33,738 bases of DNA from a virus, in the IMG/VR virus record IMGVR_UViG_3300009030_000012, positions 1 to 33,738 of that record; one strand, written 5' to 3'. A program made the translations under genes and the position numbers. The notes under the pieces are model-generated. The model did no database searches and had not been told where the DNA came from. It saw only the letters and a program-made list of their open reading frames with translations. How positions within the stretch are numbered: position 1 is the stretch's first letter; each line of letters opens with the position of its first letter. This document shows positions 1 through 33,738 of this stretch, piece after piece.

Positions 1-291
1 CTGGCTACCGCCGGCCACGCCTACAACAAGGCTGGCATGATCCGCAGCTACCAGTACACCGACGAAGGCCGCCACGCCGAGGCCCTGAGCGCCAGAAGCA
101 GGGGCAGCGTGGAGCTGAAACTGATGAACTGCTCAGCAGCCCACCGCGACATTGACGCTGGAGCCGTGACCATGGACGGCTACGGCTACCGCGCGCTGCC
201 CAACTATCAGGCCAAGACCAAGATAGCCATGCAAGCAGGTCTGGACAATCGCTACCATCAAGCACCCGGCGGCACCCGCTATGCCGGTTAA
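1..291 (+). CDS. Hypothetical protein, 5' end cut by window edge
   Basis: The frame is open from base 1 to a TAA at 289-291, giving the last 96 residues of a protein whose start lies outside the window. A methionine codon at 37 exists, but coding-like sequence continues upstream of it, so I treat the gene as truncated rather than starting there. The product is hydrophilic, with no signal peptide or membrane segment and no domain that I recognise. Its 3' end overlaps the next gene by 11 bases, which suggests co-transcription and translational coupling with the methyltransferase-like gene. Function unknown; the reading frame is fairly certain because of this overlap and the matching strand of all genes to 6318. 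Confidence 0.6.
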   Translation: MATAGHAYNKAGMIRSYQYTDEGRHAEALSARSRGSVELKLMNCSAAHRDIDAGAVTMDGYGYRALPNYQAKTKIAMQAGLDNRYHQAPGGTRYAG

Positions 292-1222
292 GCTGCCCAC
301 GCTCGATGTGACCCGGCTGGCCGCAGATTATTCTGCGGCTGTCCGTGGGGCCCTGACTGACAGCCAGATGCTCAACGTCAGACGCGGCGATGCCGTGGCT
401 GCAGACTACACCGACACCAACGAGCTGCTAATCGAGGCTATCTACCTGCAGCACCCAGAGGCCGAAATGGCCGACTACGCCGAGGAGATTCTGCTGGCCG
501 AGAAACGCGCCAGCACCGCCGGCTACAGACTCAGCCGGGTGCTGATCGCCTGTGAGTTCACAGGCACCGTCAGGGACGCTATGACAGCGCGCGGCCACTC
601 AGCCATGTCCTGTGACCTGCTGCCCACGGAGACGCCCGGAGCGCACTATCAGGGCGATGTCCGCGAGGTACTCAATGACGGCTGGCACCTGATGATTGCC
701 CACCCGCCGTGCCAGTACCTCGCTGCATCTCAGCTCTGGCGCTGCCAGCCCAAGCATGATGCCAACTACCCCGAGCGCCAGCACAATTCTGACGAGGCGC
801 TGGAATTCGTCAGGGACCTGATGGCCGCGCCAATCTCACAGCAATGCGTAGAGAACCCGGTCAGCCGTATCGGCACCGCGATCAGGCCAGCCAGCCAGTA
901 TATCCAGCCGTACCAGTTTGGCCACGACGCCAGCAAGAACACTGGCCTGTGGCTGCAGGAACTCCCCAAGCTGATCGCAGACCCGGCCGACTACATCGAG
1001 CCACGGGTGATCCGCTACCACGGTAAACTGGTCAATCGGTGGGCCAATCAGAGCCCCTGTGGCGCTGATAACAAGAGCCCCGGTCCAGAGCGGTGGAAGT
1101 TGCGCAGCAAGACCTTCACGGGCATTGCAGAGGCCATGGCCACGCAATTCACAGGCATCGCCCGCAGCCTGATGCCGGCGCCGGCACCGCGCGCGGAGGT
1201 CTGCCAACTGGCACTATTCTGA
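281..1222 (+). CDS. Phage DNA C5-cytosine methyltransferase-like protein
   Basis: A 313-aa protein. Residues 1-85 form an N-terminal region I do not recognise. From residue 86 the sequence resembles the SAM-dependent DNA cytosine methyltransferase fold: a glycine-containing motif I region (IACEFTG, 89-95), an acidic residue after the second strand (D112), HPPC at 141-144 (motif IV, with Cys144 as the expected nucleophile) and VENPVS at 190-195 (motif VI, ENV-like). It is shorter than bacterial Dcm enzymes and has no obvious long target-recognition domain, as is common for phage members of this family. Such enzymes methylate cytosine in phage DNA, usually to evade restriction. The ATG at 281 overlaps the preceding gene. 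The target sequence and whether it is active are unknown; a related pyrimidine-modifying role cannot be excluded. Confidence 0.8.
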   Translation: MPVKLPTLDVTRLAADYSAAVRGALTDSQMLNVRRGDAVAADYTDTNELLIEAIYLQHPEAEMADYAEEILLAEKRASTAGYRLSRVLIACEFTGTVRDAMTARGHSAMSCDLLPTETPGAHYQGDVREVLNDGWHLMIAHPPCQYLAASQLWRCQPKHDANYPERQHNSDEALEFVRDLMAAPISQQCVENPVSRIGTAIRPASQYIQPYQFGHDASKNTGLWLQELPKLIADPADYIEPRVIRYHGKLVNRWANQSPCGADNKSPGPERWKLRSKTFTGIAEAMATQFTGIARSLMPAPAPRAEVCQLALF

Positions 1223-1228
1223 GAGGTT

Positions 1229-1283
1229 CACGGGCTGCCCAGTGACAGTGGGCAGCACGGGAATTATCCCGCAACTACGAGGA
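1229..1283 (+). promoter_or_regulatory. Leader hairpin-RBS element 1
   Basis: First of six related leader elements. Arms GCTGCCCA (1234-1241) and TGGGCAGC (1249-1256) pair perfectly around the 7-nt loop GTGACAG. CACGG lies before the stem and ACGGG after it; GGGAATTATCCC (1259-1270) can form a small second hairpin. The Shine-Dalgarno box CTACGAGGA ends at 1283, seven bases before the ATG at 1290. No T-run follows, so this is not an intrinsic terminator. Confidence 0.85.
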
Positions 1284-1289
1284 TTGACC

Positions 1290-1472
1290 ATGACAAGATT
1301 CACCAACGCTATGTATGCACTGATGTCCGAGGTCTGCGCCATTGCTGCACTGCTCGCAGTTTATGAAGCGTACCAATACCAGAGCATCGGCCACGGCCTT
1401 AATCCGCTGGTCGCCATGCCAGTGGCCACGCTCCTGATATTGCTGCCATACGCCTTTGTGCGCCGTGTCTGA
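1290..1472 (+). CDS. Small two-transmembrane protein
   Basis: A 60-aa protein with two hydrophobic segments, roughly residues 10-24 and 39-56, separated by a short polar stretch, and a basic C-terminus (RRV). It is predicted to sit in the inner membrane. I chose the ATG at 1290 because it follows the hairpin-RBS leader with the CTACGAGGA box at the right distance; an in-frame GTG at 1242 lies inside the hairpin and is unlikely. It forms its own leader-preceded unit in the accessory cluster. Small phage membrane proteins of this kind include superinfection-exclusion factors and holin-like proteins, but nothing in the sequence decides this. Function unknown. Confidence 0.7.
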   Translation: MTRFTNAMYALMSEVCAIAALLAVYEAYQYQSIGHGLNPLVAMPVATLLILLPYAFVRRV

Positions 1473-1477
1473 TGATT

Positions 1478-1532
1478 CACGGGCAGCCCGGTGACAGCGG
1501 GCTGCACGGGACTTATCCCAAACTACGAGGAA
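1478..1532 (+). promoter_or_regulatory. Leader hairpin-RBS element 2
   Basis: Arms GCAGCCCG (1483-1490) and CGGGCTGC (1498-1505) pair perfectly around the loop GTGACAG. Compared with element 1, the third stem pair is A-T instead of T-A and the closing pair is G-C instead of A-T, so pairing is kept although the bases changed. GGGACTTATCCC (1508-1519) and the CTACGAGGAA box precede the ATG at 1537. Confidence 0.85.
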
Positions 1533-1536
1533 TGAC

Positions 1537-1980
1537 ATGAGCACAGACACAGAAAAATTCGACGCCGCAGTGGCGCATTATTGCAAGGGCTACACCGTCG
1601 CACCGGGCTGCCGGGGCGAGCAGTGCGAACACGCAACGGTGAGCTGGACCTGCCCGGACTGCGCCAGCCAGAGCGAGCAGCCGAGAAGCGAATATCCCTG
1701 CTGCAATAACTGCGACTTTGAGGACGACGCTTGGAGCCGGATAATCGGCCATCAAGGCGACCGGGAGCACCAGTGCGAGGCCTCATTCAGCTCAGCACAG
1801 TGCGATAGTTGCGGCTCGACTTTCGCAGGCGACCGGTTGCCGGCGACCATGATCCCGCTCGACTACAAGGCCGGCGAGGACACCATGATCGAGGTATCCA
1901 TCTGCACCGACTGCACGATGGCATGGGCCAACGGCGAGGACCCCGAGGAGTGGCAGCAGCATCCGGGCGACTCGATATGA
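1537..1980 (+). CDS. Cysteine-rich putative zinc-binding protein
   Basis: A 147-aa acidic protein with many paired cysteines: C25 and C30, CPDC (39-42), CC-NN-C (55-59), C80, CDSC (89-92) and CTDC (123-126). The spacing suggests two or three zinc-ribbon or treble-clef knuckles. It has no signal peptide or membrane segment, so it should be cytoplasmic. The ATG at 1537 follows the second hairpin-RBS leader. Its last codon overlaps the start of the PP-loop gene (ATGA), so the two are translationally coupled and may act together. I do not recognise a family. Metal-binding small proteins in phage accessory regions often bind nucleic acid or inhibit host proteins, but that is inference only. Confidence 0.75.
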   Translation: MSTDTEKFDAAVAHYCKGYTVAPGCRGEQCEHATVSWTCPDCASQSEQPRSEYPCCNNCDFEDDAWSRIIGHQGDREHQCEASFSSAQCDSCGSTFAGDRLPATMIPLDYKAGEDTMIEVSICTDCTMAWANGEDPEEWQQHPGDSI

Positions 1981-2804
1981 CCACCGCCAAAGGCCAGGGC
2001 GCAGGCGCTTGTGACATCGAGCGCCTGCTCGATACGGCCCACTTCTACGTCAGCCACTCAGGCGGCAAGGATTCACTCGCCACCTATGCAACGGTGTGCG
2101 AGCAGGTGCCAAGTGATCGCATCACAGTGATTCACGCCAATCTGGGCGAGGTCGAGTGGGACGGCATCATCGAGCACATCGAGGCCAACATCGAGCACCC
2201 GCTCAATGTTGTCAGCGCCATTTTCAAGGATGGCAGCCCCAAGGATTTTCTCGGCATGGTACGGCGCCGGCATCAGAAATACCCGGACAAACCCTGCTGG
2301 CCGAGCCCGAAATACCGGACCTGTACCAGTGACCTGAAAGTGGGACCAATCGACAAGTTTATCAAGGCCGATATGAAACGCCGCAATATCACCGTGGCGG
2401 TCAATGTCATGGGCCTGCGGGCCGAGGAGTCAGACAACCGGGCCAACAAGCCGGCGCTGAAAATCAATGACCGATTCACAGCGCCGACACTGGGCCGGCA
2501 GGTATATGACTGGCTGCCGATCAAGGACTGGCCAGAGCGCCGCGTGTTCGACTACGTCGCCACCAAGGGCATGCAACAGCATCACGCCTACGCCGATGGC
2601 AACAGCCGGCTGAGCTGCCAGTTTTGCATCATGGGATGCGCCGGCGACCTGCAGAACGCCGCGCGGCAGAACCCTGAGCTGCTGCAGAAGTACACCGACA
2701 TGGAGGCCGAGACTGGCTACACCATGTTCGCCTCCGGGTCACTGGCCGAGAAGCTGGCCAAAGCACCGGCGCCCGCCAAGCCATTACAGGGCGAGCTATT
2801 TTAA
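1977..2804 (+). CDS. PAPS reductase/DndC-like PP-loop protein
   Basis: A 275-aa protein of the adenine-nucleotide alpha-hydrolase (PAPS reductase) superfamily. The PP-loop SGGKDS is at 28-33. The RTCTSDLK segment (115-121, Cys116) corresponds to the conserved C-T-x-x-x-K region, followed by GLRAEES (146-152). A C-x2-C-x3-C cluster (Cys214, 217, 221) could, with Cys116, hold an iron-sulfur cluster as in CysH/DndC-like enzymes. Family members adenylate or reduce sulfur substrates or activate nucleobases; the role of phage versions is unsettled. The ATG at 1977 overlaps the previous stop; the frame is open further upstream, but that part is out-of-frame shadow of the cysteine-rich gene. The methyltransferase-like gene nearby suggests a possible part in DNA or RNA modification. 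Confidence 0.82.
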   Translation: MTTAKGQGAGACDIERLLDTAHFYVSHSGGKDSLATYATVCEQVPSDRITVIHANLGEVEWDGIIEHIEANIEHPLNVVSAIFKDGSPKDFLGMVRRRHQKYPDKPCWPSPKYRTCTSDLKVGPIDKFIKADMKRRNITVAVNVMGLRAEESDNRANKPALKINDRFTAPTLGRQVYDWLPIKDWPERRVFDYVATKGMQQHHAYADGNSRLSCQFCIMGCAGDLQNAARQNPELLQKYTDMEAETGYTMFASGSLAEKLAKAPAPAKPLQGELF

Positions 2805-2807
2805 CCA

Positions 2808-2817
2808 CTACGAGGAG
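2808..2817 (+). promoter_or_regulatory. Conserved SD box without hairpin
   Basis: The box CTACGAGGAG, identical to the one closing the leader elements, precedes the ATG at 2825 at the same distance, but the gap of 20 bases after the upstream stop holds no hairpin. The same box (CTACGAGGAA, 13612-13621) also precedes the first gene of the recombination operon. Confidence 0.7.
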
Positions 2818-2824
2818 CACAACC

Positions 2825-3475
2825 ATGAAAGACACAACACGGCGCAGGCTCGACGCAATTTGCATCGAGCAGACGGCCTTCAAGAGTTTTGAGGAGCTGA
2901 TAAACGCGGGCGGCAACTACCGGCCGAGCCTTGAAGTCACCGACTTTGACCGCTACCTGCTGGCCGAGGGCTATGACGCATGGCAGGAGGCCCACGGCGA
3001 CGAGCGCCGCGCCTTCCGGTATGGCGGGCCCAACTCAGGCATCGAGGACCTGCAGCAAGCAGAGCGCGCGGCACACCGCGAGCACATCGAGTATCTGATC
3101 GAGCATCCCACGACACCGGTCGAAGCGGCTAAGAGCGCCAAGGCCAGGGCCAAGTCAGTGATCAGCCAAGCGAGGCGCCAGAACCGCTGGCACTTCACCC
3201 ACCGTGGCGTCGAGATACTTCCCTGTGATGCGGCCGGCGCCCGCGTAGGCGACGGCGACATGCTTGAGCTGAGCGAGCTGAGCGGCAAGGCCCTGCGCAA
3301 TTCAGTGGCAGCGCTCAGGAAATACACCGACAGCTATGACGGTGACTTTGTCACAGTCGGCATCGCGGGCGGGCTCGATTGTTGGGACAGCCTGCAGGAG
3401 CAGCTCAAGGGCGGCGACTACGAGCCCGGTTTTGAATACTGGGATATCAGCGTACCCGTGGCGGCGTTCGACTGA
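2825..3475 (+). CDS. Hypothetical protein (216 aa)
   Basis: A 216-aa soluble protein of unknown function. Residues 1-60 contain helical, aromatic segments. A basic, alanine-rich middle part (about 100-122) looks like a helix or nucleic-acid-contacting linker, followed by a compact acidic C-terminal half with a WDSLQEQL segment near residue 190. No signal peptide, membrane segment or known motif is visible. The ATG follows the CTACGAGGAG box by seven bases, which fixes the start. It is the only leader-type gene start in this cluster with the box but without the hairpin. Placement between the PP-loop gene and other unknown accessory genes gives no further functional clue. Confidence 0.7.
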   Translation: MKDTTRRRLDAICIEQTAFKSFEELINAGGNYRPSLEVTDFDRYLLAEGYDAWQEAHGDERRAFRYGGPNSGIEDLQQAERAAHREHIEYLIEHPTTPVEAAKSAKARAKSVISQARRQNRWHFTHRGVEILPCDAAGARVGDGDMLELSELSGKALRNSVAALRKYTDSYDGDFVTVGIAGGLDCWDSLQEQLKGGDYEPGFEYWDISVPVAAFD

Positions 3476-3484
3476 GCGGTGACT

Positions 3485-3537
3485 CACGGGCTGCCGGGTC
3501 AGAGCCGGCAGCACGGGAATTATCCCACTACGAGGAG
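3485..3537 (+). promoter_or_regulatory. Leader hairpin-RBS element 3
   Basis: Arms GCTGCCGG (3490-3497) and CCGGCAGC (3505-3512) pair perfectly around the loop GTCAGAG. The seventh pair is G-C here and C-G in elements 1, 2, 4 and 5, a compensatory swap. GGGAATTATCCC (3515-3526) and CTACGAGGAG precede the ATG at 3545. Confidence 0.85.
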
Positions 3538-3544
3538 TACAAGC

Positions 3545-3823
3545 ATGACCAGCAACAAACTACCGCCAACGTGCGCGGCGAAGCTGCCGAGCACCGACAA
3601 GGGCATCATCATCAGACGCGGCGAGGCCGGCTATTACACGCCTGCCGCCGGGTTCGATGTTGACCGCTACAACGAGCAGCACGGTGTAACCAAGCCACAA
3701 CAGGAGGCCATGTTCTGCGGCTCGATGTTTGGCTGGAACGTACCCGGCGCCCACCCGGAGGCCTACGACGACGATGGCACATTCAGCCGCGACGGCTACG
3801 ACGCCATCAAGGCGGCATCATGA
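3545..3823 (+). CDS. Hypothetical protein (92 aa)
   Basis: A 92-aa protein rich in glycine, tyrosine and aspartate, with repeated phrases such as YYTPAAGFDVDRYN in its first half and FSRDGYDAIKAAS at the C-terminus. No membrane segment, signal or cysteine motif is seen. I use the ATG at 3545, which sits seven bases after the SD box of leader element 3; an in-frame GTG at 3479 lies upstream of the hairpin and would translate through it, which no other gene here does. The stop overlaps the next start (ATGA at 3820-3823), so both are read from one message. Function unknown. Confidence 0.7.
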   Translation: MTSNKLPPTCAAKLPSTDKGIIIRRGEAGYYTPAAGFDVDRYNEQHGVTKPQQEAMFCGSMFGWNVPGAHPEAYDDDGTFSRDGYDAIKAAS

Positions 3824-4299
3824 GCGCGCGCACCGATGCGGAGTACATCAAGGCAGCCAAGCGCCTGCATGAAAGCGAGGGCGAGGTCGAGGTCGATGCC
3901 AACGCCAGGGTATCGCGCGGCGGGGTGTCAGGCGGCACTACGGCCAGCAACGACCCCGGCGCCTACGTGCAGGCTTGGGTATGGGTGCCTGACGATCAGG
4001 CGGCACCCGAGACTGAGGAGCGGCCCATGATGCTGGTCAACACATGGGCCAAGCTGATCGAGGATGGAATGATCTATCGGCTGGTCAGGGTGACGCCCGA
4101 GGAGGTACGGCCGTGGACATTCTGCCTCGAATGCTGCTCAGACTACCGGGAGACTGACGGCGGTAAATTCGACGCCCGCGATGAGATTGTCGAGGTCTGT
4201 GATTCGGCGTTCAATGACTTCGATCACCTGTGCGCGTTCGCCAAGGAAGTGGCAGCAATCCTGCACTGTGAGCCGGCAACCATAGTGAGGGCCATCTGA
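3820..4299 (+). CDS. Hypothetical protein (159 aa)
   Basis: A 159-aa acidic soluble protein. Residues 1-45 contain a basic helix followed by a glycine/serine-rich stretch; the middle carries several tryptophans (VQAWVWVP); a small cysteine group FCLECC lies near residue 103-108. No domain is recognised. The start overlaps the previous stop by four bases and the stop overlaps the next start (TGATG), making a three-gene coupled unit 3545-4505 headed by leader element 3. Function unknown; being sandwiched between two small genes with the same coupling suggests a shared accessory role. Confidence 0.7.
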   Translation: MSARTDAEYIKAAKRLHESEGEVEVDANARVSRGGVSGGTTASNDPGAYVQAWVWVPDDQAAPETEERPMMLVNTWAKLIEDGMIYRLVRVTPEEVRPWTFCLECCSDYRETDGGKFDARDEIVEVCDSAFNDFDHLCAFAKEVAAILHCEPATIVRAI

Positions 4300-4505
4300 T
4301 GAACTGCCCAGAATGCAACAGCAACGACATAGACGAGCAGGAACTCAGGCCACCGGCGCCGGGAATGATGGCGTACCAGTGCGTTGAATGCGAGGCCGCA
4401 TGGTTGAGCAGCGACGGCGTAACCGCTCAGGCCACCGCCACTGGCGAGGATCGGAGGGCATTCCGCGCCCAGATGGATCAGGTCACAGATGACCTATTTG
4501 GGTGA
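4299..4505 (+). CDS. Small zinc-ribbon protein
   Basis: A 68-aa protein whose first half is a classic zinc ribbon: CPEC at 3-6 and CVEC at 28-31, spaced by about 21 residues, with a WLSS turn after the second knuckle. The C-terminal half is acidic and probably helical (residues 46-68). The ATG overlaps the preceding stop in a TGATG arrangement, so it depends on upstream translation. Such short ribbons in phages are usually nucleic-acid or protein adaptors; the specific partner is unknown. Leader element 4 begins directly after its stop. Confidence 0.75.
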   Translation: MNCPECNSNDIDEQELRPPAPGMMAYQCVECEAAWLSSDGVTAQATATGEDRRAFRAQMDQVTDDLFG

Positions 4506-4507
4506 CG

Positions 4508-4561
4508 CACGGGCAGCCCGGTCAGAGCGGGCTGCACGGGAATCATCCCAACTACGAGGAG
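4508..4561 (+). promoter_or_regulatory. Leader hairpin-RBS element 4
   Basis: Arms GCAGCCCG (4513-4520) and CGGGCTGC (4528-4535) pair perfectly around the loop GTCAGAG. GGGAATCATCCC (4538-4549) keeps its four-base arms while the loop changes. CTACGAGGAG ends seven bases before the ATG at 4569. Confidence 0.85.
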
Positions 4562-4568
4562 TACAAGC

Positions 4569-4955
4569 ATGAAAATCACAAAGATAGACCGGGCGATCTG
4601 CCGGCAACTGCGGCCGCAATTAGAGGCGACATTGGCCGAGGAATTCACCGAGGCCACCGGGCTGAAAGCGGAGGTAGGAAGCGGCACCTATTCAGATGTA
4701 TCTGTCACCTTCAAGGTAACGCTATCAATCGCCGGCTACGACGCCGGCCGCAGTAATTTCGAGCGCTGCTGTGAGGCTTTCGACCTGAGCGCCAGCGACT
4801 ACGGCCGCGAGTTCACGGTTGCCGGCCGCACCTACAAGCTGGTCGGCCTCAAACCTCGCTCGCCAAAATTCCCCATTGTTGGCGAATTCAATGGCCAGCG
4901 GTACAAGCTGCCCGAGCGCTACATCGCTGAATTGACAGAAAAATTCCCGGCGTGA
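4569..4955 (+). CDS. Hypothetical phage protein (128 aa)
   Basis: A 128-aa protein. The first 35 residues look helical, followed by alternating hydrophobic stretches typical of beta-strands (TYSDVSVTFKVTLSI) and a basic segment around residue 90-110 with the phrase YKLVGLKPRSPKFP. It ends with a helical tail. No signal, membrane segment or cysteine motif. The start is set by leader element 4; another ORF in a shifted frame over the same start is a shadow. It is a single-gene unit flanked by leader elements on both sides. I do not recognise a named family and give no function. Confidence 0.7.
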   Translation: MKITKIDRAICRQLRPQLEATLAEEFTEATGLKAEVGSGTYSDVSVTFKVTLSIAGYDAGRSNFERCCEAFDLSASDYGREFTVAGRTYKLVGLKPRSPKFPIVGEFNGQRYKLPERYIAELTEKFPA

Positions 4956-4957
4956 GT

Positions 4958-5010
4958 CACGGGCTGCCCGGTCAGAGCGGGCAGCACGGGAATCATCCCA
5001 CTACGAGGAG
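4958..5010 (+). promoter_or_regulatory. Leader hairpin-RBS element 5
   Basis: Arms GCTGCCCG (4963-4970) and CGGGCAGC (4978-4985) pair perfectly around the loop GTCAGAG. GGGAATCATCCC (4988-4999) and CTACGAGGAG (5001-5010) precede the ATG at 5017. It starts only two bases after the previous stop codon. Confidence 0.85.
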
Positions 5011-5016
5011 CACGAC

Positions 5017-5193
5017 ATGAAAAATGCAATCCTGAAAGTAGACGGCGACAAGCTGACGATCACCGTTGACCTGTCAAAAGACTACGGCCCGAGCAATAGC
5101 GGCAAGACCATCATCATCGCCACCAGCTCAGGCAATCAGAAAATCGAGGGCACCGACGCGATTATCGGCCTGAATATCTACACCAAACGATAA
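5017..5193 (+). CDS. Hypothetical small protein (58 aa)
   Basis: A 58-aa protein with a regular alternating pattern that suggests a small beta-sheet protein: LKVDGDKLTITVDL, a SGKTIIIATSSG turn and a C-terminal DAIIGLNIYTK strand. The SGKT string is not a full P-loop, because no GxxxxGK context precedes it. It lies between leader elements 5 and 6, with the ATG seven bases after the SD box and the stop (TAA, 5191-5193) just before the next leader. This flanking by two leader elements is strong support that the short frame is translated. Function unknown. Confidence 0.75.
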   Translation: MKNAILKVDGDKLTITVDLSKDYGPSNSGKTIIIATSSGNQKIEGTDAIIGLNIYTKR

Positions 5194-5195
5194 CG

Positions 5196-5248
5196 CACGG
5201 GCAGCCGGGTCAGAGCCGGCTGCACGGGAATTATCCCACTACGAGGAG
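5196..5248 (+). promoter_or_regulatory. Leader hairpin-RBS element 6
   Basis: Arms GCAGCCGG (5201-5208) and CCGGCTGC (5216-5223) pair perfectly around the loop GTCAGAG, combining the A-T third pair of elements 2 and 4 with the G-C seventh pair of element 3. GGGAATTATCCC (5226-5237) and CTACGAGGAG lead to the ATG at 5255. Confidence 0.85.
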
Positions 5249-5254
5249 CAAATC

Positions 5255-5929
5255 ATGAACGAGTACCAACAACAACAGGAGACCAGGGATCAGCAATTCG
5301 AGGCCGAGCTGGCCGCCATAGCTGGCCAATTAGGAGACTGGTCGGTTAAACCGTGGGACAGTGAAGGCCGAGGAGCGCTATCAGGCAGAGGATCTACATG
5401 GCGCATGCTTATCGAGCGCGACACGCAGCGCGAGCTGTGGTGTCACCGCTACATGGCCAGCAGCCGTGCCCGGATCGAGTTCAAGCCGACCAACTGGCCG
5501 ACCTATACCGACGAGTCAAACAAGGAATTCACCGTCTGGCCGACTGACTTGTATCCCAAAGAAGTGACGCCAGTCTGCAGCGCGGCAGTGGGGCGCGATC
5601 CCAAGGCAGTGGCGAATCAGATCGGCAAGCTGCTGCCCGAGTATGACCGCATCCACAAGCTGTGCATTCAGCAAGCCGAGGAGTCAGGCAGCTACTACGC
5701 CAAGAGCCGCGAGGCCATCGAGCAGCTATGCAAGGCGACCGGCAACCCGTACAAGAAGGGCGAAACCTATCACAGCTATTTCCTGCGCGGGCTGAGCGAT
5801 ACCCAGTCGGTGCAATTCAATTCGGTAGGCGATGTCGAGATCAGGCTGCCGGCCGAGGAGATGCTGCAGGTCATTGACCTGATCTACAAGCTACGGACTG
5901 GCAAGCCACGCGCGCAAACCAGTGAATAA
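5255..5929 (+). CDS. Hypothetical protein (224 aa)
   Basis: A 224-aa soluble protein starting with a glutamine-rich helix (residues 3-14). A strand-rich middle contains many tryptophans and arginines (about 45-100), and a helical C-terminal half includes an ALKxK-like stretch near residues 120-165. No known catalytic motif, signal peptide or membrane helix is visible. The ATG is fixed by leader element 6. The following gene, 24 bases downstream, has an ordinary GAGGAGAGGA ribosome-binding site and no hairpin, so this is the last gene with the special leader. Function unknown. Confidence 0.7.
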   Translation: MNEYQQQQETRDQQFEAELAAIAGQLGDWSVKPWDSEGRGALSGRGSTWRMLIERDTQRELWCHRYMASSRARIEFKPTNWPTYTDESNKEFTVWPTDLYPKEVTPVCSAAVGRDPKAVANQIGKLLPEYDRIHKLCIQQAEESGSYYAKSREAIEQLCKATGNPYKKGETYHSYFLRGLSDTQSVQFNSVGDVEIRLPAEEMLQVIDLIYKLRTGKPRAQTSE

Positions 5930-19568: not shown

Positions 19569-19880
19569 TCAACTCAGTACCACATTGACTCCGGTCACTA
19601 CGCCAGGGGGCGTGTCGTCGGGCACTGTGAACGGCTCATCATGAGCCGCGCCTCTTAAGCCTGCAGTGTCGATGCAGACCAAGGTAAAAATCCAGTCACC
19701 GATCTCGAGATCAGGCACCAGCAGCTCGAGGGTGTCAGGCGGCACTACGGCCAGCACTGACGAGGGTGCGCCGGCAATCGCGAGCGATACCTCCTCACCC
19801 TGAATCTCGGCAGGGTCCAGCGACTTGCCACTGCCCCGGACGGTCGGCAATACCCAGTGAACGGTTGCATTCATGGTCAT
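19569..19880 (-). CDS. Small FN3/Ig-like beta protein (103 aa)
   Basis: A 103-aa protein without signal peptide, strand-rich and ending in a TPPGVVTGVNVVL string, the usual linker and tail seen around fibronectin type III and Ig-like domains. The start is taken at the ATG at 19880 after GGAG; a second ATG two codons later is possible. The fold, about one Ig-like domain, and its place next to the secreted FN3 protein suggest a virion-surface or cell-contact role. The C-terminal string resembles that of the tiny frame just upstream (19884-19964). Confidence 0.62.
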   Translation of the reverse strand: MTMNATVHWVLPTVRGSGKSLDPAEIQGEEVSLAIAGAPSSVLAVVPPDTLELLVPDLEIGDWIFTLVCIDTAGLRGAAHDEPFTVPDDTPPGVVTGVNVVLS

Positions 19881-24586: not shown

Positions 24587-27500
24587 CTACCTCCTTCTGC
24601 CTATCAGATACTCATACCATGCCGCATCCTCGGCCATGTAGGCCTCGATGGCGCGGTTGACCTGACTCGAGGGCAGATGCAATGCGGTGCCCAGTGCGCT
24701 GATCGTGGTGGTAATTGCCTGCTCATCCAGTTCGCCTTGCTTGACCTGCATAATTACATCGAATACATCCTTCATCAGCGAGCCAATCGGGGTGTTGCCT
24801 GAGCCGTATCTGGCGGTCGAGATTTCACGCAGGAACGGGATGCCGGCAATCATCGAGTCGAGCGTGGCCAGCCCCACCCATGCCGCGACGTTGTAAGCAT
24901 CCATTTTCTCCTCATCGTCACCCTCGGGCCAGTTACCGTAGACCAACTGCGAGGCGATGCCCTCAACCATGAATAGCATCACGTAATCAATCGCCAGGTT
25001 AGCGGCATCGCCAATGGTCCTATCGCTGCGCTTGTACTTCTGCGTTGACTCGTAAGCCAGCCCTTGCTTGCGGATCATGTACGAGATCAGCGTCGTCCAT
25101 AGCCTGACGTACTGTGATTGCCGGGTCCGGTTGCCAAGAGTGCCACGCTCGATCCCTGATCGATCTGCCCAGATACCGGATGTCTGTGCGCCTTCTACCT
25201 GCGAGTCAGCAAACAGGCGGGAGTCAACCTCAGACAGCGCCATGTTGTTGCGACCATTCCAGTACGCACCCATCCATGTCCACACATCGACCAGCGATTG
25301 AGCCTTGGCGATCATCCAGAAATACTTGCTGCTGAATAGCTTGAAATTTCGGCTGAATTGGGTCGGGATCGGGCCGAAAATAGATTTCATGAAGGCCTGA
25401 GAATCTGCCACTTCGACGCTGTAGGTCTGCATCACACCGTAGCGGGTGTGCATGAATTTCGAGTTTGCCATGACCCAGTTGTAGTGGCCGACAGGATTCT
25501 GCAGGAACTTGCCAAAGCCCATCATGAAATTTTTCTTGCCGATGAACGCCATCGATTGAAAGGCGCCGGTTATCTGCAGCAATGTCACCGTGATGCTGAA
25601 TGCCAGCTTTGATTTCGTGAAGCCCACACGGGTCCAGCCGGCCATTTTCTCCCAGATATTTGACGCCGGCAGCTCACCGACCGCGGCATCAGTCGCCCAC
25701 AGCACCAGCTCTTTCAGTGCGACCTCGTTGTTGGTGAACGTGAATGCCCGCCTGACCTTCTCAGAGTTCAGCAGCCGCATGATGTAGTTGATCTCGTCGC
25801 CTATGGCGATGTCACGAATGGTTTCTCGCAAGTGCTGATCGATGCCGCCCAGTCCGAGACGCACTACCCGGCCATGATTCCTGACCCGGTTGTAGGTCGA
25901 TCCGGCTCGGGTGCTGGATGAGACGTAGAGCCCCTGCCCCATTTTTCTGGCGACCTCGTTAAGATCGTCGGCCTTTACTTTGTCACCAAATTTCGGGTTA
26001 TACCACAGGTGATAGTAGCCACCCTTGACCGTGATCTCTTGATTATCCACAGTATTGATCGTGAACGGCAGCGGCTCGATTTTCTGCGGCGCAACACCAC
26101 GCCGGCGCTTTTCTACCGTGGCCAGACCTTCACGGATAACCTTGCCACTATCGTCTTTTTGATCGAACCAGTAAGTATCGAGGTAATCCCACATATCCTG
26201 AATGAATAGCCAGTCACGGGCATCGAGCGTGGCCAGTGCGGCCATCACTTCGGCTTGCGGGAAGGCATTGCCGACGATGTTGCCATCGATATCCTTTCTC
26301 ACGCCGCCCAGGAGCGCAGCACGGTTGGTATCCGAGCCCCAGTTCAGGCCAATCGATAACACATCCGACCGGGACAGCTTCTCGCTAAAGCCCTCAATCG
26401 TTTTTTTCTTTTCAATGTCAGCCAGCTCCGGGTTGCTGTAGTGCTTGGTATACAGCGCGGCCACATCCTCCTGATACTGGTGGATCATCGGGATCAGCTT
26501 TTCGGCGTAGGCGCGACGGATCGGAATAGCCAGCAATCTGGTCAGCGCCCCCCACGCATTGCCATCGAGGATGCGGGAGATCGCGCCGACGCTCAGCGAA
26601 TGGTAGACCCCCTCTCTGATGGATTCACCAAAGCTCTTTTTGCCAGTCTCCTCTGCGACACCAAAATCGACCACCACATTGTTAGCCTTGACGCTCTCGG
26701 CAATCTCAGTCTCGACCTCGGCAAGCACAACCTCCTCGCCGTTGACCATTGCCATTTCGCTACGCTTGGGCATGTTCTCGAGCTGCATCACAATGTCGCG
26801 CATCTCACGGAATTCCTGCACCGTGAGTTCCTGCCAGTTAATGCCAAAGCCCTCGTTCAGAATCACCTGCTCATTGCCGAGATCATCGACAACCACGCGG
26901 AATAGCTTGCCGGCCTGCTCGCCATTCATGCTGATGTGGCCAGCGTGAACCATCTCCGCGACTTCCTGCAGCGCCGTATTTCGATCTACCTCCGCGAGCG
27001 AGCGCCGGCGCAGATCAATGCCCTCGATGATCGCGAGGATCGGATCGAGCAGCCCTGCCTTGCCCAGTCGCCGCTGCGTTACGGGCTTCTCTAATCCCCT
27101 GAGATATTTCTGTATCCTGCTGGTCTCCTCCTTGGCCCTGATCGCCGCCCTGAATGCCTCATGATTGCGAATCTGCGTGGCCTTCTCATCGTAGGCAGTG
27201 GCCCAGTCCTGCTTTTCGATTGCCGCCCATGCCCGCCGGCCAGCCTTCTGCTCAGCCAGCCGGTACTTATTGGGATTGATCTCTCGAATTTTCAGCTTGC
27301 TCATGAAACTCTGAGCCAGCTTCTTGATGATCGACAGCTCAACGCGGGTCGGCAGCAAAGCCTTGGCCGCCGCCTTGCCCTCAGTGACCTCACGGGCAGC
27401 CGCACGGCGCTCAGCGCCGACGATCTTCTGGTCCTTACGCTGCAACCTACGCAACGCCCGCATCTCAGCAGCGAGCACCTGAGCCCGCTTGTCGTTATGC

Positions 27501-30500
27501 ACGGAGATCAGCGCATCAGCCGCCAGAGTGCCATCGGTCATCGGATCAGGAAATCTTTCCTCCATCAGCCGATCCGTTTCAAACTGTATCAGCTCATCCA
27601 TTGGGCGAGCTGTGACCAAGGCCTGCAGCATGTCCTGTGCATCGGCGTAGCCAAAGACGCCAGCGGCGACATCGACATCGACGCCACCCTTGACGCTGTA
27701 GATTGCCGACCGACCGCGTCCGGGGAACCTTGCGAGGAATTCCTGTGAGCCGGCAGCAGCTCTCAGCAGGCTGACCTTGCTAATCTTGAAAGGAGCAGGC
27801 GATAGCGCTGGACTACCATCAGGGAGCTGACCCCGCTGCAGCATTGCCAGTGCGATATACACCGGCATACCATGAACCTCGGCAGTGACCTGCTCCTCGA
27901 TTTTATCGCGCTCGCTCTGCCACCATGCTTGTGCCTGACGAGTGACGTATGCGAGCTGCTTGCGGTGCTCCTGATCGACCGCCTCCTGATGGGCCTGTTC
28001 GGTATTCTCTCGATAGACCTCAAAGGCCTCGGGAGTCATGTTGGCCGCGGCGGCGGTAGAAAATATCGGTCTGAATCCCTGCTGCGCCTCGGCGTTTGTG
28101 ATCGCCTCATCAGTCGCCACCATGCGATCCATGACGCCACGAATCTCGTCGGTCAGCACAATGCCGTCATAGTAGTTCAGGATGTGCTTGTAGATTTTGA
28201 CCAGCCACACACTGAATGCAGAGAAAAGCGGCTGCAGCTCATGGGTCGGCGCCACGCCCTCTTGGTAATACGCCTCTTGGGACTTGGCCCATATCTCATG
28301 CTCCTTGGCCGTAATCTCCGAGCGTCTGGTGACACCGATGTATTTCAGAATTTTGGCGTAGTCATCGATGGTTTTCTGCGGCGCCTCCGGGCGCTCAGCC
28401 AGATCGCCCATGATATTGAGCCACAGATGCGCGCTCTCATGCAGAAAGCTCGACAGATCCCGAGCCTTGGCCATGCGAATGATGCCGCGGCCCTGCTCAT
28501 CGAATGTGATCGACGCACGGTGCTTGTCCTGAAAATAGGTCAGACCAAGCAGCGCGGTTTGTTTCATCTCGTCGCTTATATCCAGCGCATGAACCTCAAC
28601 GCGGGCGAGGGCATCGAAATACTCCAGCTCGAAATTTATAACCCCGCCCTGATTCATGGCCTTCTGGGCGGCCTTCTTAGTCTTGTACTGACCTTTCCAA
28701 CCGTTGCGCTTATCGGTGATCTGCCAGTGACCCGCATCAGGATGCTCGATCAGGCCACCGAATTTCTTGACCCGAGCTTTTTTGTCCAGCGACCGGGCCA
28801 CGCGATTGGTGACGTTAATCAGCATGTCGTCGTAGAAATCGGCCATGCCCTCGCCGCCGACCATCAAATTATCATCCGTGATCTCTTGCGAGTAATCAGC
28901 CTCGAGAATCTGTTTGGCCAGCCGCTCACCGATGAGGTCCTCGAGCTGCTTGCCTTTCCAGTATTCCGGTGAACCGCGCTCGATGTTTTCGATAGTGCCA
29001 TCTCGGGCGACACCAATGCTCATCAGGCGGTTATTGTACATTTTGAAACTCACGGAGCGGCCGGCGTCCGCACCATCGGCAGTAAGCCGGCCTACGGCAC
29101 TGATAGTTTGGACAACCTTTCGCAGATCGTATCGATTGGCCTGCTGCTCTCCGGTGGTCCAGGCTATCTGGTCGTAACCCTGCTCGGCGGCTATCCTGAT
29201 CAGCCGTTTCATGACCAGCTCCATCCACGCAGCACCGCCGAAGGCGAACGGCGGTGCCTTGTTTTCCTCATGCGCCAGTTGACGAGCAATAAAATCAGCC
29301 TCGGTACGGTTACGATGCCACATGGGTTCATTGAGGATGTGGTCTGTGATCGGATCACGTTGACTGGCCAAATCCTGAGACTGCGCATTCAGCTCAACCA
29401 GTCGCTCAGTCATCAACTCAATCGCCAGCAGATTCCTGATGCCATTTTTCCGGGCGAGCTTATCGAAGTCGCTTTGCATCTCCTCGATAAACAGAATCCG
29501 CTCGCCATTAGGACCGGTACGGTCATTCACACGGAACCAAGCGATGATGTTCTTGTAGTCCCTGAAAACGTGGCTCTCGAATTCACTCGCACTCTCATTC
29601 CGCAGTGCGCTCAGCAGCTCGTAGGCTCGCTGTATGGGCGCACCACCAAGCCCTGCAGCACCGAAATCCGCAGCAATGACATCGAACTGCTCAAAAGCAC
29701 GGAGAAAAGCACCCGCGACTGGGCGCAGGCTTGCGCTGAAATGCTCATCGAGCATGCCCTTCTGGTCCTTGGGCAAGTCATTGTAGGCCGCGATCACCGA
29801 CAGCTTTGCGGCGTCGTATGCCGGCGTGGAAATGGTCGGCATCTTGAGGATGACCTCACGGTAGTTTTTGCCACCGGCCAGTTGCCAAGTCGATGCTTCC
29901 GGGCCCCGGATCAGGTAAGTGCCATCCCCCAGATCGGAATAGCCCCATCCCGGTATGATGGTGCGGATCGCATCATGGGCCTCACGCATCTCTAATATCG
30001 CAGCCCTGCCCTCCGGGCTGGCCATCGTGAATTGACCACTCGACACGGCCGCCGTCGCTACATCTACCCGCATTCTGGCGGCGGCCTGCTCCTCGGGTGT
30101 GCCAAAGCGTCCGATAGTCGTGCCATGCTCTCCCTGCAGGGTCGCCATGAATCCGTGGACCTGCTGATCGGTCAGCATCTCGAAGGTAATATCTGTGGCA
30201 TTACCTGTTTTGACCAACTCGGCCTGCTGATCGCTCATCTCGGCCACCATGAGCTGAATGTGCGAGAACCGCCCGGACTCCCAGGCCGCCTTAACGTCCA
30301 CGGGTCTAATGATCTTGCCGGAAACCTCGCCAAGGGTGATCTCCTCGACCCTGAGCCCCCCGGATTCGATGAAATTGATCAGATTATCCCGTGTAACCGT
30401 GCCCTTGGCCGCCATCCATTGCGGTACGCCAATCCATTCCAGCTCGCGCTTTTTGACACCGGGCATTTTCTTGAGCATGGAAAGCATCTGCTCAGCCGTG

Positions 30501-33091
30501 CCCTTCTCTTGCGGCAGCGAGCGGGCCGCATTCAGCAGCCCTGATGTGAACCCGATCTCAGACTGGAACAGGGTGCGACCGCCTGCCTTGCTGATCTGGT
30601 CCTGCAATTCAAACAAGGCCTGAGTTCTTGCGGCAGCGTCTCCGCGCAGGTACTCGATGTAGGGAACGCCGTGCTTTCGCAGGGTCGCCCGTATCTCAGG
30701 GGCCGCATCGAACGGGATCACGGCGCCGGCAAACTCACTGAGCTTGACCGCGCGCTGCGGCTTGGCCTCAAAATACGGCACCGGGTTTGCAATGGTGGCG
30801 GCTGCCGCATCGATCCCCTGTTGAATGATCTCGTCAGTGATTGGCCCAACATAACCGGCACGTTGCAGACCGCGGATCATGGCCTCTGTGTCACTCAGGC
30901 CATCTTTGTTTTGAATCCAGAACAAAGTCGCTTCCCGAGCGGCGTCACTGGCATCAGAGAAAGACCGTAGAGTGCCCGCATCGTATGGCCACCACGGCTT
31001 TAGCGCGGTGATCCAGTCGAGCATCATTTTCTGCGAGACATCGCGGGCGGCCTGCACCTTTTCCGGCGTGTCGATCTGCTCCAGCGCACGGCGTCTGGCC
31101 TCATCGAGGTTCTTGATTCTGTTGGCGGCCTTGGCCCGCAGCAGGCCCTCGCTCGGCATCGTAGTCTCTGTGGCGCGCAGCTTGCCGCGCATCTTGCGCA
31201 GCACGTTTTCCATGGTGTAGGGATACCACCGGCTGCCGATCTTGATGCGCCCCTCACCCATGAGCCCATGCACCTTGGCATCGATCCAAGCCTTGAATTC
31301 GGACTCAGCGCCATGCCCCCAGATGCGCTCATCGAGATAGGTTTTAGTGTCAACATCATTGATCCGGGTGCTGCCCTTGAGTTTTACATCCCTTTGCAGG
31401 CGGTCGTAGGCTTGCAGAGTAAGGGTGCCATCGTCATTGATGATGCCGGCAATCGCTATAGACCGCTGAGTAAGCGCCCAGACCTTCTCGGCCCGCTCAA
31501 TCTCACTCTCCGTGATGCGATCTTTGGCCCCGAGGCTGGTCGCCAAAGTGTGATGATGCTGTATCGCTTTCATCACGGCGCGGCCAGCTCGTTGCATCAG
31601 CTTGATGCGCCGCGGGTCCTCAGAGTCCAGATTTTCAGCACTCAGATCACCCTCAAAAAACTTGATGATCTGCGGTTGCCAGCCCCAGATATATCCGGGC
31701 TGCACATCATCGACGGTCGGCTCAGGGTCCTCGCCATAGCGCTCGTTGAGAAACCACGCTTTTGCTGAATTGTCGAAAAGCATGAAATCAACCAGTGCTT
31801 GAGCATTGGGCCGGCGGCGAGCGTATTCGATAATGAAATCGGGCAGGCCCACATACCGCGAGCCCTCGATCATCAGTGACCAGATAGCAGCCTCATCGGC
31901 CATCGCCCTGACATCCTCCAGCGAGGCCGGCTTGTGCTGCGCCCGCGGAGTCCTGACCGCGTAGGCATCGGCATCGAATAGCGGCACCTGCTGCGGATCA
32001 CCAAGGTCCTCCTTGCCGATCAGGGTGATTTCACCAAAGGACGATAAAGCCTTGTCCGCGGGCAATACAGCAATCGATGGCATCGCCAGGCCGCCGAACG
32101 AGTCGGCAAATGTCAGGTCACTCGCGGTCAGGTTATGCAGTGCCTGCAGCCTCGGGCCGGCGTCCGACTGGAACAGCTCTTGGCCAATGAAATGATTGGC
32201 CAGCACCGAATGAATGTCCTCGAGGCGTATCGCCTTCTGTGCCGTACCGCGCGCCAGCTCTGCAATTTTCGGCTGCAGGTAGGTCATCAGGTAGAACATA
32301 TAATCCGTCAGCAGTACCTCTTTATCGAACGTGATCGCGAAATCATTCGGGCTCTGCCGCTCCCTGAATGGCATCCCGGCATTGACACCATGCCGCCTGA
32401 TATACAGGTCGCCCTTGCCCGTGGTTTTGAGTTTCCACGGCACTTTAACGTGGATATTCTGAGATAGTTTGCGAGGATTTCGGCGCTCACCGTAAAAGAT
32501 CGTTTTCTGGCGCTCATCGAGCAGGCGTGATCGAATCTCATGCTCAAGGGCCTGATTCAGCAGGGTGTGGGCGCGCTGCTGCATGGCTTCCCAACTGGCC
32601 ATCAGCTCCGTAGGCGAACTGCCTTTGATAAAACCACCGACGCCCGCACCCAAGAAAACCTCACGCCGCGCCGGATCAGCAAAGAACATCGCGGCCAGCG
32701 CTGCCTGTACTTCCTGCGGGTCATTGAGATCGACTGGAGGCTCACCCTCCGCATAGTTTTGGATGACTTCCTCGGTCGCCCCGATACGCTCCTGTTCCTC
32801 CGTTACCGCAGCCTTCTCCTGCTTGAGGTCCATTTGCTCCTGATGCAGCGTGGCGAGCATGCGCATTTGCAGCGCGGCCAATTCAGTAATCTTGTCCGAG
32901 CGGCGCTGCACGGTGCCACCAGCCAGCTCAATGATGTCAACAACAGACAAAACCTCTGCGATGGCCTCAGACAGGATGTTACGCACGGCCGTCGCATCGG
33001 GCGTTCCCTGTGCGACATCAAGAATGATCGTGGCCCGATCATCAGGCTTGATATCAGCCCGTAGCGTGTGAAAACAATCCCTTAGCGTCAT
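24587..33091 (-). CDS. Giant polyvalent virion-type protein, HExxH motif
   Basis: An uninterrupted protein of 2834 residues (ATG at 33091; a TTG at 33109 would add six). It reads like the polyvalent proteins of phages, multi-domain proteins thought to be packaged in the capsid and ejected with the DNA. Visible parts: a helical N-terminus with coiled-coil stretches (50-110); a block at about 1070-1320 with YREVILKMP, FIEEMQSDFDKLARKNG (about 1200) and WTTGEQQANRYDL (about 1310), phrases typical of these proteins; HESAH at 1551-1555 in LSSFLHESAHLW, a zinc-metallopeptidase HExxH; long charged helices (1600-2100); hydrophobic segments near 2490-2520 and 2695-2715. It starts one base after the repeat-protein stop. 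Host function unknown. Confidence 0.82.
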   Translation of the reverse strand: MTLRDCFHTLRADIKPDDRATIILDVAQGTPDATAVRNILSEAIAEVLSVVDIIELAGGTVQRRSDKITELAALQMRMLATLHQEQMDLKQEKAAVTEEQERIGATEEVIQNYAEGEPPVDLNDPQEVQAALAAMFFADPARREVFLGAGVGGFIKGSSPTELMASWEAMQQRAHTLLNQALEHEIRSRLLDERQKTIFYGERRNPRKLSQNIHVKVPWKLKTTGKGDLYIRRHGVNAGMPFRERQSPNDFAITFDKEVLLTDYMFYLMTYLQPKIAELARGTAQKAIRLEDIHSVLANHFIGQELFQSDAGPRLQALHNLTASDLTFADSFGGLAMPSIAVLPADKALSSFGEITLIGKEDLGDPQQVPLFDADAYAVRTPRAQHKPASLEDVRAMADEAAIWSLMIEGSRYVGLPDFIIEYARRRPNAQALVDFMLFDNSAKAWFLNERYGEDPEPTVDDVQPGYIWGWQPQIIKFFEGDLSAENLDSEDPRRIKLMQRAGRAVMKAIQHHHTLATSLGAKDRITESEIERAEKVWALTQRSIAIAGIINDDGTLTLQAYDRLQRDVKLKGSTRINDVDTKTYLDERIWGHGAESEFKAWIDAKVHGLMGEGRIKIGSRWYPYTMENVLRKMRGKLRATETTMPSEGLLRAKAANRIKNLDEARRRALEQIDTPEKVQAARDVSQKMMLDWITALKPWWPYDAGTLRSFSDASDAAREATLFWIQNKDGLSDTEAMIRGLQRAGYVGPITDEIIQQGIDAAAATIANPVPYFEAKPQRAVKLSEFAGAVIPFDAAPEIRATLRKHGVPYIEYLRGDAAARTQALFELQDQISKAGGRTLFQSEIGFTSGLLNAARSLPQEKGTAEQMLSMLKKMPGVKKRELEWIGVPQWMAAKGTVTRDNLINFIESGGLRVEEITLGEVSGKIIRPVDVKAAWESGRFSHIQLMVAEMSDQQAELVKTGNATDITFEMLTDQQVHGFMATLQGEHGTTIGRFGTPEEQAAARMRVDVATAAVSSGQFTMASPEGRAAILEMREAHDAIRTIIPGWGYSDLGDGTYLIRGPEASTWQLAGGKNYREVILKMPTISTPAYDAAKLSVIAAYNDLPKDQKGMLDEHFSASLRPVAGAFLRAFEQFDVIAADFGAAGLGGAPIQRAYELLSALRNESASEFESHVFRDYKNIIAWFRVNDRTGPNGERILFIEEMQSDFDKLARKNGIRNLLAIELMTERLVELNAQSQDLASQRDPITDHILNEPMWHRNRTEADFIARQLAHEENKAPPFAFGGAAWMELVMKRLIRIAAEQGYDQIAWTTGEQQANRYDLRKVVQTISAVGRLTADGADAGRSVSFKMYNNRLMSIGVARDGTIENIERGSPEYWKGKQLEDLIGERLAKQILEADYSQEITDDNLMVGGEGMADFYDDMLINVTNRVARSLDKKARVKKFGGLIEHPDAGHWQITDKRNGWKGQYKTKKAAQKAMNQGGVINFELEYFDALARVEVHALDISDEMKQTALLGLTYFQDKHRASITFDEQGRGIIRMAKARDLSSFLHESAHLWLNIMGDLAERPEAPQKTIDDYAKILKYIGVTRRSEITAKEHEIWAKSQEAYYQEGVAPTHELQPLFSAFSVWLVKIYKHILNYYDGIVLTDEIRGVMDRMVATDEAITNAEAQQGFRPIFSTAAAANMTPEAFEVYRENTEQAHQEAVDQEHRKQLAYVTRQAQAWWQSERDKIEEQVTAEVHGMPVYIALAMLQRGQLPDGSPALSPAPFKISKVSLLRAAAGSQEFLARFPGRGRSAIYSVKGGVDVDVAAGVFGYADAQDMLQALVTARPMDELIQFETDRLMEERFPDPMTDGTLAADALISVHNDKRAQVLAAEMRALRRLQRKDQKIVGAERRAAAREVTEGKAAAKALLPTRVELSIIKKLAQSFMSKLKIREINPNKYRLAEQKAGRRAWAAIEKQDWATAYDEKATQIRNHEAFRAAIRAKEETSRIQKYLRGLEKPVTQRRLGKAGLLDPILAIIEGIDLRRRSLAEVDRNTALQEVAEMVHAGHISMNGEQAGKLFRVVVDDLGNEQVILNEGFGINWQELTVQEFREMRDIVMQLENMPKRSEMAMVNGEEVVLAEVETEIAESVKANNVVVDFGVAEETGKKSFGESIREGVYHSLSVGAISRILDGNAWGALTRLLAIPIRRAYAEKLIPMIHQYQEDVAALYTKHYSNPELADIEKKKTIEGFSEKLSRSDVLSIGLNWGSDTNRAALLGGVRKDIDGNIVGNAFPQAEVMAALATLDARDWLFIQDMWDYLDTYWFDQKDDSGKVIREGLATVEKRRRGVAPQKIEPLPFTINTVDNQEITVKGGYYHLWYNPKFGDKVKADDLNEVARKMGQGLYVSSSTRAGSTYNRVRNHGRVVRLGLGGIDQHLRETIRDIAIGDEINYIMRLLNSEKVRRAFTFTNNEVALKELVLWATDAAVGELPASNIWEKMAGWTRVGFTKSKLAFSITVTLLQITGAFQSMAFIGKKNFMMGFGKFLQNPVGHYNWVMANSKFMHTRYGVMQTYSVEVADSQAFMKSIFGPIPTQFSRNFKLFSSKYFWMIAKAQSLVDVWTWMGAYWNGRNNMALSEVDSRLFADSQVEGAQTSGIWADRSGIERGTLGNRTRQSQYVRLWTTLISYMIRKQGLAYESTQKYKRSDRTIGDAANLAIDYVMLFMVEGIASQLVYGNWPEGDDEEKMDAYNVAAWVGLATLDSMIAGIPFLREISTARYGSGNTPIGSLMKDVFDVIMQVKQGELDEQAITTTISALGTALHLPSSQVNRAIEAYMAEDAAWYEYLIGRRR

Positions 33092-33092
33092 G

Positions 33093-33738
33093 TCAGTCCA
33101 AATCGTCAAATATCGCAGTGGCGGCGGCGATGACTATAGCAAGGATTTCCTCATCCTCGATCTCGAGGCGCTTGCGAATCGGGTCCTCGCGGGCGTAGTC
33201 ATGCACGGTCGATCCGGGCACCACCAAGCCAACAATGATGGCGTTACCGGTAGAGAACGGTTTGCTGATCGACGGTGAGCCACTGGCCGTGTGAGTTTGT
33301 GGAACAAAGGCCACGCCAGTCGATGTTGGCTTAGTGATCGATGGAGCACCGCTGGCCTTGATCGTGTGAATGGCCGCGCCGCTCGATGTTGGCTTGCTGA
33401 TCGAGGGCGAGCCAGCGGCGATCCGCTTGGTGATTGCACTGCCAGCCGCTATCAGCTTGCTGATCGATGGCGCGCCGCTGGCGGTTATCTTGACCGATGT
33501 CAGAGCCTCGCCGGTCGATGTTGGCTTGGTGATCGAGGGCGCACCACTGGCGAATCTCTTGACTGTAGCGCTACCGGTCGAGGTTGGCTTGGTGATCGAG
33601 GGCGCACCGGTAGCCGTGACGATACGGCGAGCTGTGCCGGCTGATACCGGCTTGGTGATCGAGGGCGCGCCGCTGGCGATCCGCTTAGTGATGGCCGAGC
33701 CGGCCGCTATTATCTGGTTGATCGAGGGCGCGCCGGTA
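33093..33738 (-). CDS. Tandem-repeat protein, 5' end beyond window
   Basis: The frame is open from the right edge to TGA at 33093-33095, giving the last 214 residues. A long repeat array (eight units of 20-23 residues in view) is built on (A/T)SGAPSI(T/S)KPTSTG, followed by a unique C-terminal region of about 45 residues with acidic helix and hydrophobic tail (EIEDEEILAIVIAAATAIF). The repeats are strand-turn-like and rich in Ser, Thr, Pro, Gly and Ala. Its coding end is one base before the giant gene start. A virion surface or tail-shaft repeat protein is likely from position, but no name can be given. Confidence 0.7.
   Translation of the reverse strand, partial: TGAPSINQIIAAGSAITKRIASGAPSITKPVSAGTARRIVTATGAPSITKPTSTGSATVKRFASGAPSITKPTSTGEALTSVKITASGAPSISKLIAAGSAITKRIAAGSPSISKPTSSGAAIHTIKASGAPSITKPTSTGVAFVPQTHTASGSPSISKPFSTGNAIIVGLVVPGSTVHDYAREDPIRKRLEIEDEEILAIVIAAATAIFDDLD
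33219..33738 (-). repeat. Eight-unit coding repeat array
   Basis: On the minus strand, units of about 60-69 bases recur, each containing a version of CCCTCGATCACCAAGCCAAC. They are direct tandem copies inside the coding frame and are truncated by the window edge, so more units are expected outside. Units differ mainly at the third and last third of the repeat. Confidence 0.82.

Follow-up and report, generated by a model that had tools for sequence, protein, structure and literature searches.

Six leaders in one viral gene cluster

What is the short leader that recurs before six gene starts of an uncultured virus, and what could it do for the genes around it? The window, meaning the whole 33,738-nucleotide stretch of a 33.7-kb IMG/VR virus record, was originally predicted to carry six leaders at six gene starts, and all six were found there. 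Every copy lies on the + strand and fills the gap between a stop codon and the next Shine-Dalgarno (SD) sequence, and over 62 nt the six show 69–92% identity to the copy at 3479. A scan of the window for the tail pattern CACGGGANNNATCCC(0-6)CTACGAGGA gave six matches on the + strand and none on the − strand, and a reversed control pattern gave none.

Copy 1 (1218–1283) precedes the open reading frame (ORF) at 1290, with an apical stem at 1234–1241/1249–1256 and an SD box at 1275–1283. The stop codon of gene 281–1222 is at 1220–1222, and the outer helix of this copy is weak, the exception among the six. Copy 2 (1467–1531), before 1537, has its outer helix at 1471–1475/1513–1517, its apical stem at 1483–1490/1498–1505, and its SD box at 1523–1531; the same elements of copy 3 (3474–3536), before 3545, lie at 3478–3482/3520–3524, 3490–3497/3505–3512, and 3528–3536. 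In copy 4 (4497–4560), before 4569, the outer helix, GGUGA at 4501–4505 with UCAUC at 4543–4547, includes the stop codon UGA (4503–4505) of gene 4299–4505, followed by the apical stem (4513–4520/4528–4535) and SD box (4552–4560). Stop codons also lie inside the outer helices of copy 5 (4947–5009, before 5017; stop codon 4953–4955, outer helix 4951–4955/4993–4997, apical stem 4963–4970/4978–4985, SD box 5001–5009) and copy 6 (5185–5247, before 5255; stop codon TAA 5191–5193, outer helix GATAA 5189–5193/TTATC 5231–5235, apical stem 5201–5208/5216–5223, SD box 5239–5247). The copies had been correctly placed, but the earlier boundaries missed the 5′ part of the element, as the outer helix begins ~7 nt upstream of CACGG and pairs with the 3′ side.

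The gene cluster with the six leaders (281–5929, + strand) comprises a DNA-methyltransferase-like gene (281–1222), a PAPS-reductase-like gene (1977–2804), and otherwise unknown genes, and its gene order suggests a single polycistronic message. Among the starts without a leader, those at 1977, 3820, and 4299 overlap the preceding gene, so that there is no spacer to house one, and that at 2825 has an SD box alone. The CTACGAGGA box had been counted as part of the element. However, it also precedes hairpin-free ATGs at 2808 and 13612, and looks like the usual SD of the window phage, not specific to the hairpin. Other repeats in the window are a 32-nt repeat at 3923–3954 and 19730–19761 (94% identity, 15.8 kb apart) and imperfect repeats with 63- and 69-nt spacing at 33238–33735, up to the window end.

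Several simple identities for the leaders were rejected. On the coding strand, scans for intrinsic terminators and sigma-70 promoters listed no site at any leader, all terminator-like sites being on the other strand, in line with the earlier view that these hairpins, with no T-run after them, are not terminators. Neither the distance from leader to AUG nor its frame is conserved, which speaks against a leader peptide or N-terminal extension. An N4-type hairpin promoter served by a virion polymerase was also discarded, as the 2840-aa ORF has just a PBECR5 domain in Pfam. This ORF (24587–33109, − strand), with the nuclease-like PBECR5 as its sole Pfam match, is possibly a large injected polyvalent phage protein.

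Relatives and covariance models

The element was also found in IMG/VR records 3300028835_000233 (G001), 3300020235_000141 (G002, near-identical to the window), 3300024265_000058 (G003), 3300028835_000723 (G004), 3300009488_000138, 3300037246_001906, 3300028835_000427, and 3300028835_000126. The IMG/VR pattern scans used exact patterns, by which more distant copies will have been missed, and the contigs of these relatives may be incomplete. A covariance model, R1, was built from 16 copies of the first sequence type (type A), and these seed copies match it by construction. R1 recovered 23 copies, of which 20 are distinct and 14 of those lie beyond the window's six, at 52–78 bits on the sense strand; copies new through R1 include those at L010 12066, L017 2069, and L117 327. 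Pattern scans and covariance models hence supplied, in IMG/VR relatives, the homologues with further compensatory changes that had been anticipated.

No curated Rfam covariance model gave a credible match to the leaders, consistent with the earlier statement that no named element resembles them. A pattern search of isolated phages gave just marginal short matches, and one of GTDB genomes returned 49 stretches, none above 22.7 bits with R1 and so taken as chance; on these scores, occurrence in prophages or hosts was rejected. Judging from their sequences, the leaders are an undescribed RNA family in a group of uncultured phages, with up to six copies per gene cluster.

A single long hairpin supported by covariation

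RNAalifold on the 23 copies predicted one long irregular hairpin. From the outside in, it comprises the outer helix, a C-G pair, an A.G mismatch, a C-G pair, a G-C pair (A-U in three copies), a G.A mismatch, and the apical stem, with CACGG and ACGGG partly paired within it; the type A stem has 16 canonical pairs over ~20 stacked positions. The outer helix varies with pairing kept (GGUGA/UCAUC, GAUAA/UUAUC, GAUGU/ACAUC, and GGUAA/UUAUC). Across the 20 distinct type A copies, 95.9% of cells pair and 7 of the 16 pairs show double changes; slid controls fall to near zero. These results uphold the selection on base pairing that had been proposed, as do the changes on both arms at pairs 3, 7, and 8, which are present as described within the window copies. 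The perfect 8-bp stem also claimed holds for all six window copies but not for their relatives, 7 of 20 distinct copies being unpaired at stem pair 8, as G.G or A.C.

Significance was assessed with a tree-aware null of our own (not R-scape itself), in which substitutions were reshuffled along the tree of the elements. Over all column pairs, 19–38 and 23–34 reached E = 0.003, followed by 24–33 (E = 0.6), 15–42 (E = 1.2), and 9–48 (E = 2.9); for the latter three, E would be ~0.01–0.04 with testing confined to the 16 structural pairs. The structure accounts for five of the six strongest column pairs. By the strict test, two pairs reach significance, each of them in the apical stem; support for the outer helix comes from the weaker structural test, pair counts, folding, and the second sequence type described below. 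Columns 10 and 47 of alignment A8, which lie beside the outer helix and are non-canonical (mostly C.A or U.C), covary as strongly as some true pairs.

Type A copies are also conserved in sequence. Nearly invariant parts are the loop, which reads GUSASAG in all but a few cases, and the middle, CAC[G/A]G / A[C/U]GGGA, with its mismatches. Leaders are 73–98% identical between compared copies, next to coding DNA that in pairwise alignment is often only 40–65% identical, with some neighbors up to 89%. This conservation leaves room for a specific protein. The hairpin may be the binding site of a phage or host RNA-binding protein that represses or activates translation of the following genes together, like the T4 RegA and gp43 operators, a possibility that we take seriously but consider unlikely. 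Near-invariance of loop, middle, and mismatches despite the divergence of neighboring genes fits such a site, as does a hairpin ending so close (0–11 nt) to the SD, but its distance to SD and AUG varies, and the second sequence type retains the shape and not the loop or apical sequence. Nor does a candidate partner protein stand out, since comparison with G001, G003, and G004 returned many shared genes, none prominent.

A second sequence type

Leaders of a second sequence type, type B, are carried by more distant relatives with ~54% identical methyltransferases (L117, and L169/L237) and by records L234, L236, L239, L240, and L241. Their layout is that of type A: a GAGUGA/UCAUUC outer helix, a mismatched middle, a long apical stem, and a 3′ strand reading GGGAAU(C/U)AUUC. 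Folding predicts stems of roughly 24–28 bp with few interruptions. The apical stems differ almost wholly in sequence with pairing kept, and 8 of 17 pairs show double changes among eight copies, in a small alignment that was fitted to the model and whose result agrees with that on the four seed copies. In four type B copies, L117:798–861, L117:1829–1889 (−), L234:5761–5825 (−), and L239:287–350 (+), an extra hairpin around GGGTYCAATGCGGGACCC lies between the long hairpin and the SD.

Among the weak matches of R2, a model built from type B alone, nine fall exactly on type A copies, which argues for the two types being one family. L117 carries both types. The L241 homologue of the 5255 gene in the window is preceded by a type B copy, which means that this slot keeps a hairpin, though one of another sequence; in L169, there is no element before the 5255-family gene and one type B copy elsewhere.

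Freedom of the type B apical sequence would also suit a passive spacer, a hairpin with no specific partner that prevents the following SD from pairing or shields the upstream message at its 3′ end. A strong stem placed between stop codon and SD is what such a spacer should be, but we find the idea quite improbable, as it accounts neither for the near-invariance of loop and middle in type A nor for the SD box alone at the non-overlapping start 2825.

Pairing in RNA or in DNA

Among the 20 distinct type A copies, 21 cells hold G.U, compared with three A.C cells in 23 rows, though shared ancestry makes the independent events fewer than these counts suggest. This excess speaks for a pairing of the sense RNA rather than a DNA dyad. 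The R1 scores (52–78 bits on the sense strand, ≤26.8 bits on the other) also favor a reading on the sense strand, and the original inference of pairing in RNA was supported. The argument first given for it, that a DNA-binding dyad could not tolerate the swaps, was weak in itself, since a palindrome may change in its two half-sites at once; a better argument comes from the G.U bias.

Genes in these phages are gained and lost as whole leader-plus-gene units. In the interval from the 68-aa gene to the 5255-family gene (4299–5255 in the window), G001 (L230) has one leader, G003 (L227) two, and the window three, and the leaders may serve as recombination boundaries for such units. A DNA element, either a dyad for a DNA-binding protein or a boundary at which leader-plus-gene units are exchanged, could account for this, and the ESAS repeats of mycobacteriophages, similarly positioned, are regarded by their authors as DNA sites (PMC3203893). 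We nonetheless regard a DNA element as very improbable: G.U pairs far exceed A.C, every copy is oriented with its gene and sits at a gene start, and any sequence that is repeated might bring about cassette exchange as a side effect.

Competing folds at the 3′ strand

The original prediction described a two-hairpin architecture, with a GGGA/TCCC mini-hairpin following the stem. The fold that covariation supports is instead the single long hairpin, which excludes the mini-hairpin. In the type A alignment, the mini-hairpin is almost invariant and hence without covariation support, and it competes with the outer helix, being the less stable fold in all distinct copies except copy 1 and the L016 copy. 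As it lacks covariation and the outer helix excludes it in most copies, we rejected it as part of the conserved fold. The two folds are mutually exclusive, with a difference of ~0.3–5 kcal/mol in most copies.

Presence of a stop codon in the helix leaves room for a ribosome-gated switch. Here, a ribosome terminating at the upstream stop would open the outer helix, and the 3′ strand would refold as the GGGA/UCCC mini-hairpin, altering the initiation or fate of the next gene, so that each gene would sense whether the preceding one was translated. Such a switch seems improbable to us. In its favor, most copies have the stop codon within or touching the outer helix, the exclusive folds are close in energy, and nearly all copies retain the CC that closes the mini-hairpin, more than the outer helix would require. 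Against this, the SD is clearly buried in neither fold, the mini-hairpin lacks covariation, and the type B copy of L169 has no CCC.

A candidate mRNA-processing hairpin

Our favored reading, held tentatively and at a little less than an even chance, is that the leaders are cis-acting intercistronic mRNA-processing hairpins that work like the early RNase III sites of T7. The end of the upstream gene would pair, as the outer helix, with the sequence just before the next SD, and this segment of the mRNA would fold as one long irregular stem of outer helix, mismatch-rich middle, and apical stem of 7–9 bp. An RNase specific for double strands, such as RNase III of the host, would cut the stem, separating the cistrons and setting the stability and translation of each, after which the released GGGA..UCCC segment might form a small hairpin of its own before the SD. 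We infer the cutting itself as well as its enzyme, its place, and its effect on expression.

This reading draws on covariation along the whole stem, present also in the independent type B set, and on the form of type B, in which a long near-continuous stem with free apical sequence is what recognition of double-stranded RNA would lead one to expect. It also draws on the excess of G.U over A.C, on the leaderless starts that overlap the preceding gene and so lack a spacer, and on the early spacers of T7, which, folded alike, share this anatomy. In each type A copy examined, the stop codon ends inside the 5′ strand or 3–12 nt upstream of it, the hairpin ends 0–11 nt before the SD, and the SD and AUG come next. 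Counting against processing, type A conserves its loop and middle (GUSASAG, CACGG, and ACGGGA) more than RNase III should need, its stem is on the short side for an enzyme whose sites have about two helical turns of double strand, the outer helix of copy 1 is weak, and R2 finds no T7 homology at the model threshold.

Conserved inverted repeats at many gene starts have been reported in several phage groups without a mechanism, and the leaders provide a covariation-supported RNA family for such repeats. Compensatory variants occur naturally among them, their sequences fall into two types, and one relative lacks a leader at the same gene. If they are processing sites, repeated intercistronic hairpin processing reaches beyond T7-like phages; if they are a protein site or a switch, they mark an undescribed regulon, and a ribosome-gated switch, if true, would be a new class of repeated termination-sensing RNA.

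Comparison with known systems

By position, the nearest named elements are the SAS/ESAS repeats of Cluster K mycobacteriophages. Like the leaders, they come in numerous conserved copies immediately before gene starts, with an inverted repeat followed by an SD-like box. Departures in the arms of the Cluster K ESAS do not generally support RNA pairing, and the authors favor DNA-binding sites (PMC3203893); similar repeats are listed for Microbacterium phage clusters EF and EG (PMC7302621). Unlike the 17-bp imperfect inverted repeats of the ESAS, the leaders covary in their pairing, and the sequences differ. The 13-bp GGGATAGGAGCCC motif of the SAS at the SD is not in the leaders, whose box is CTACGAGGA.

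The translational operators of T4 RegA and gp43 are RNA sites at the translation starts of phage genes, overlapping or abutting the SD or AUG, whereas the distance of the leaders to SD and AUG varies. The put RNA of HK022 is a structured phage RNA that acts in cis, once per operon, on RNA polymerase. The leaders are likewise structured phage RNA, to which Rfam holds no match, and come as one copy per gene.

In anatomy, the leaders resemble the T7 early spacers, where the hairpins compared are the RNase III sites R0.3, R0.5, R1, R1.1, and R1.3, which the T7 record does not annotate. R2 gave no match in the T7 early region at the model threshold, and the comparison is one of analogy, not of common descent. 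The type A stem is shorter than those of T7, with more mismatches and a conserved middle. The leaders are like the T7 sites in placing an irregular stem (~17–28 bp) before the SD. In both, irregular hairpins are repeated in intercistronic spacers, the outer helix contains or adjoins a stop codon, and the SD and AUG follow directly. Folding of T7 R0.5 places the gene 0.4 stop codon (1431–1433) inside the outer helix GAGUGAUA, with 62 nt from this stop to the next AUG; in copy 4 of the window, the distance from stop to AUG is 63 nt.
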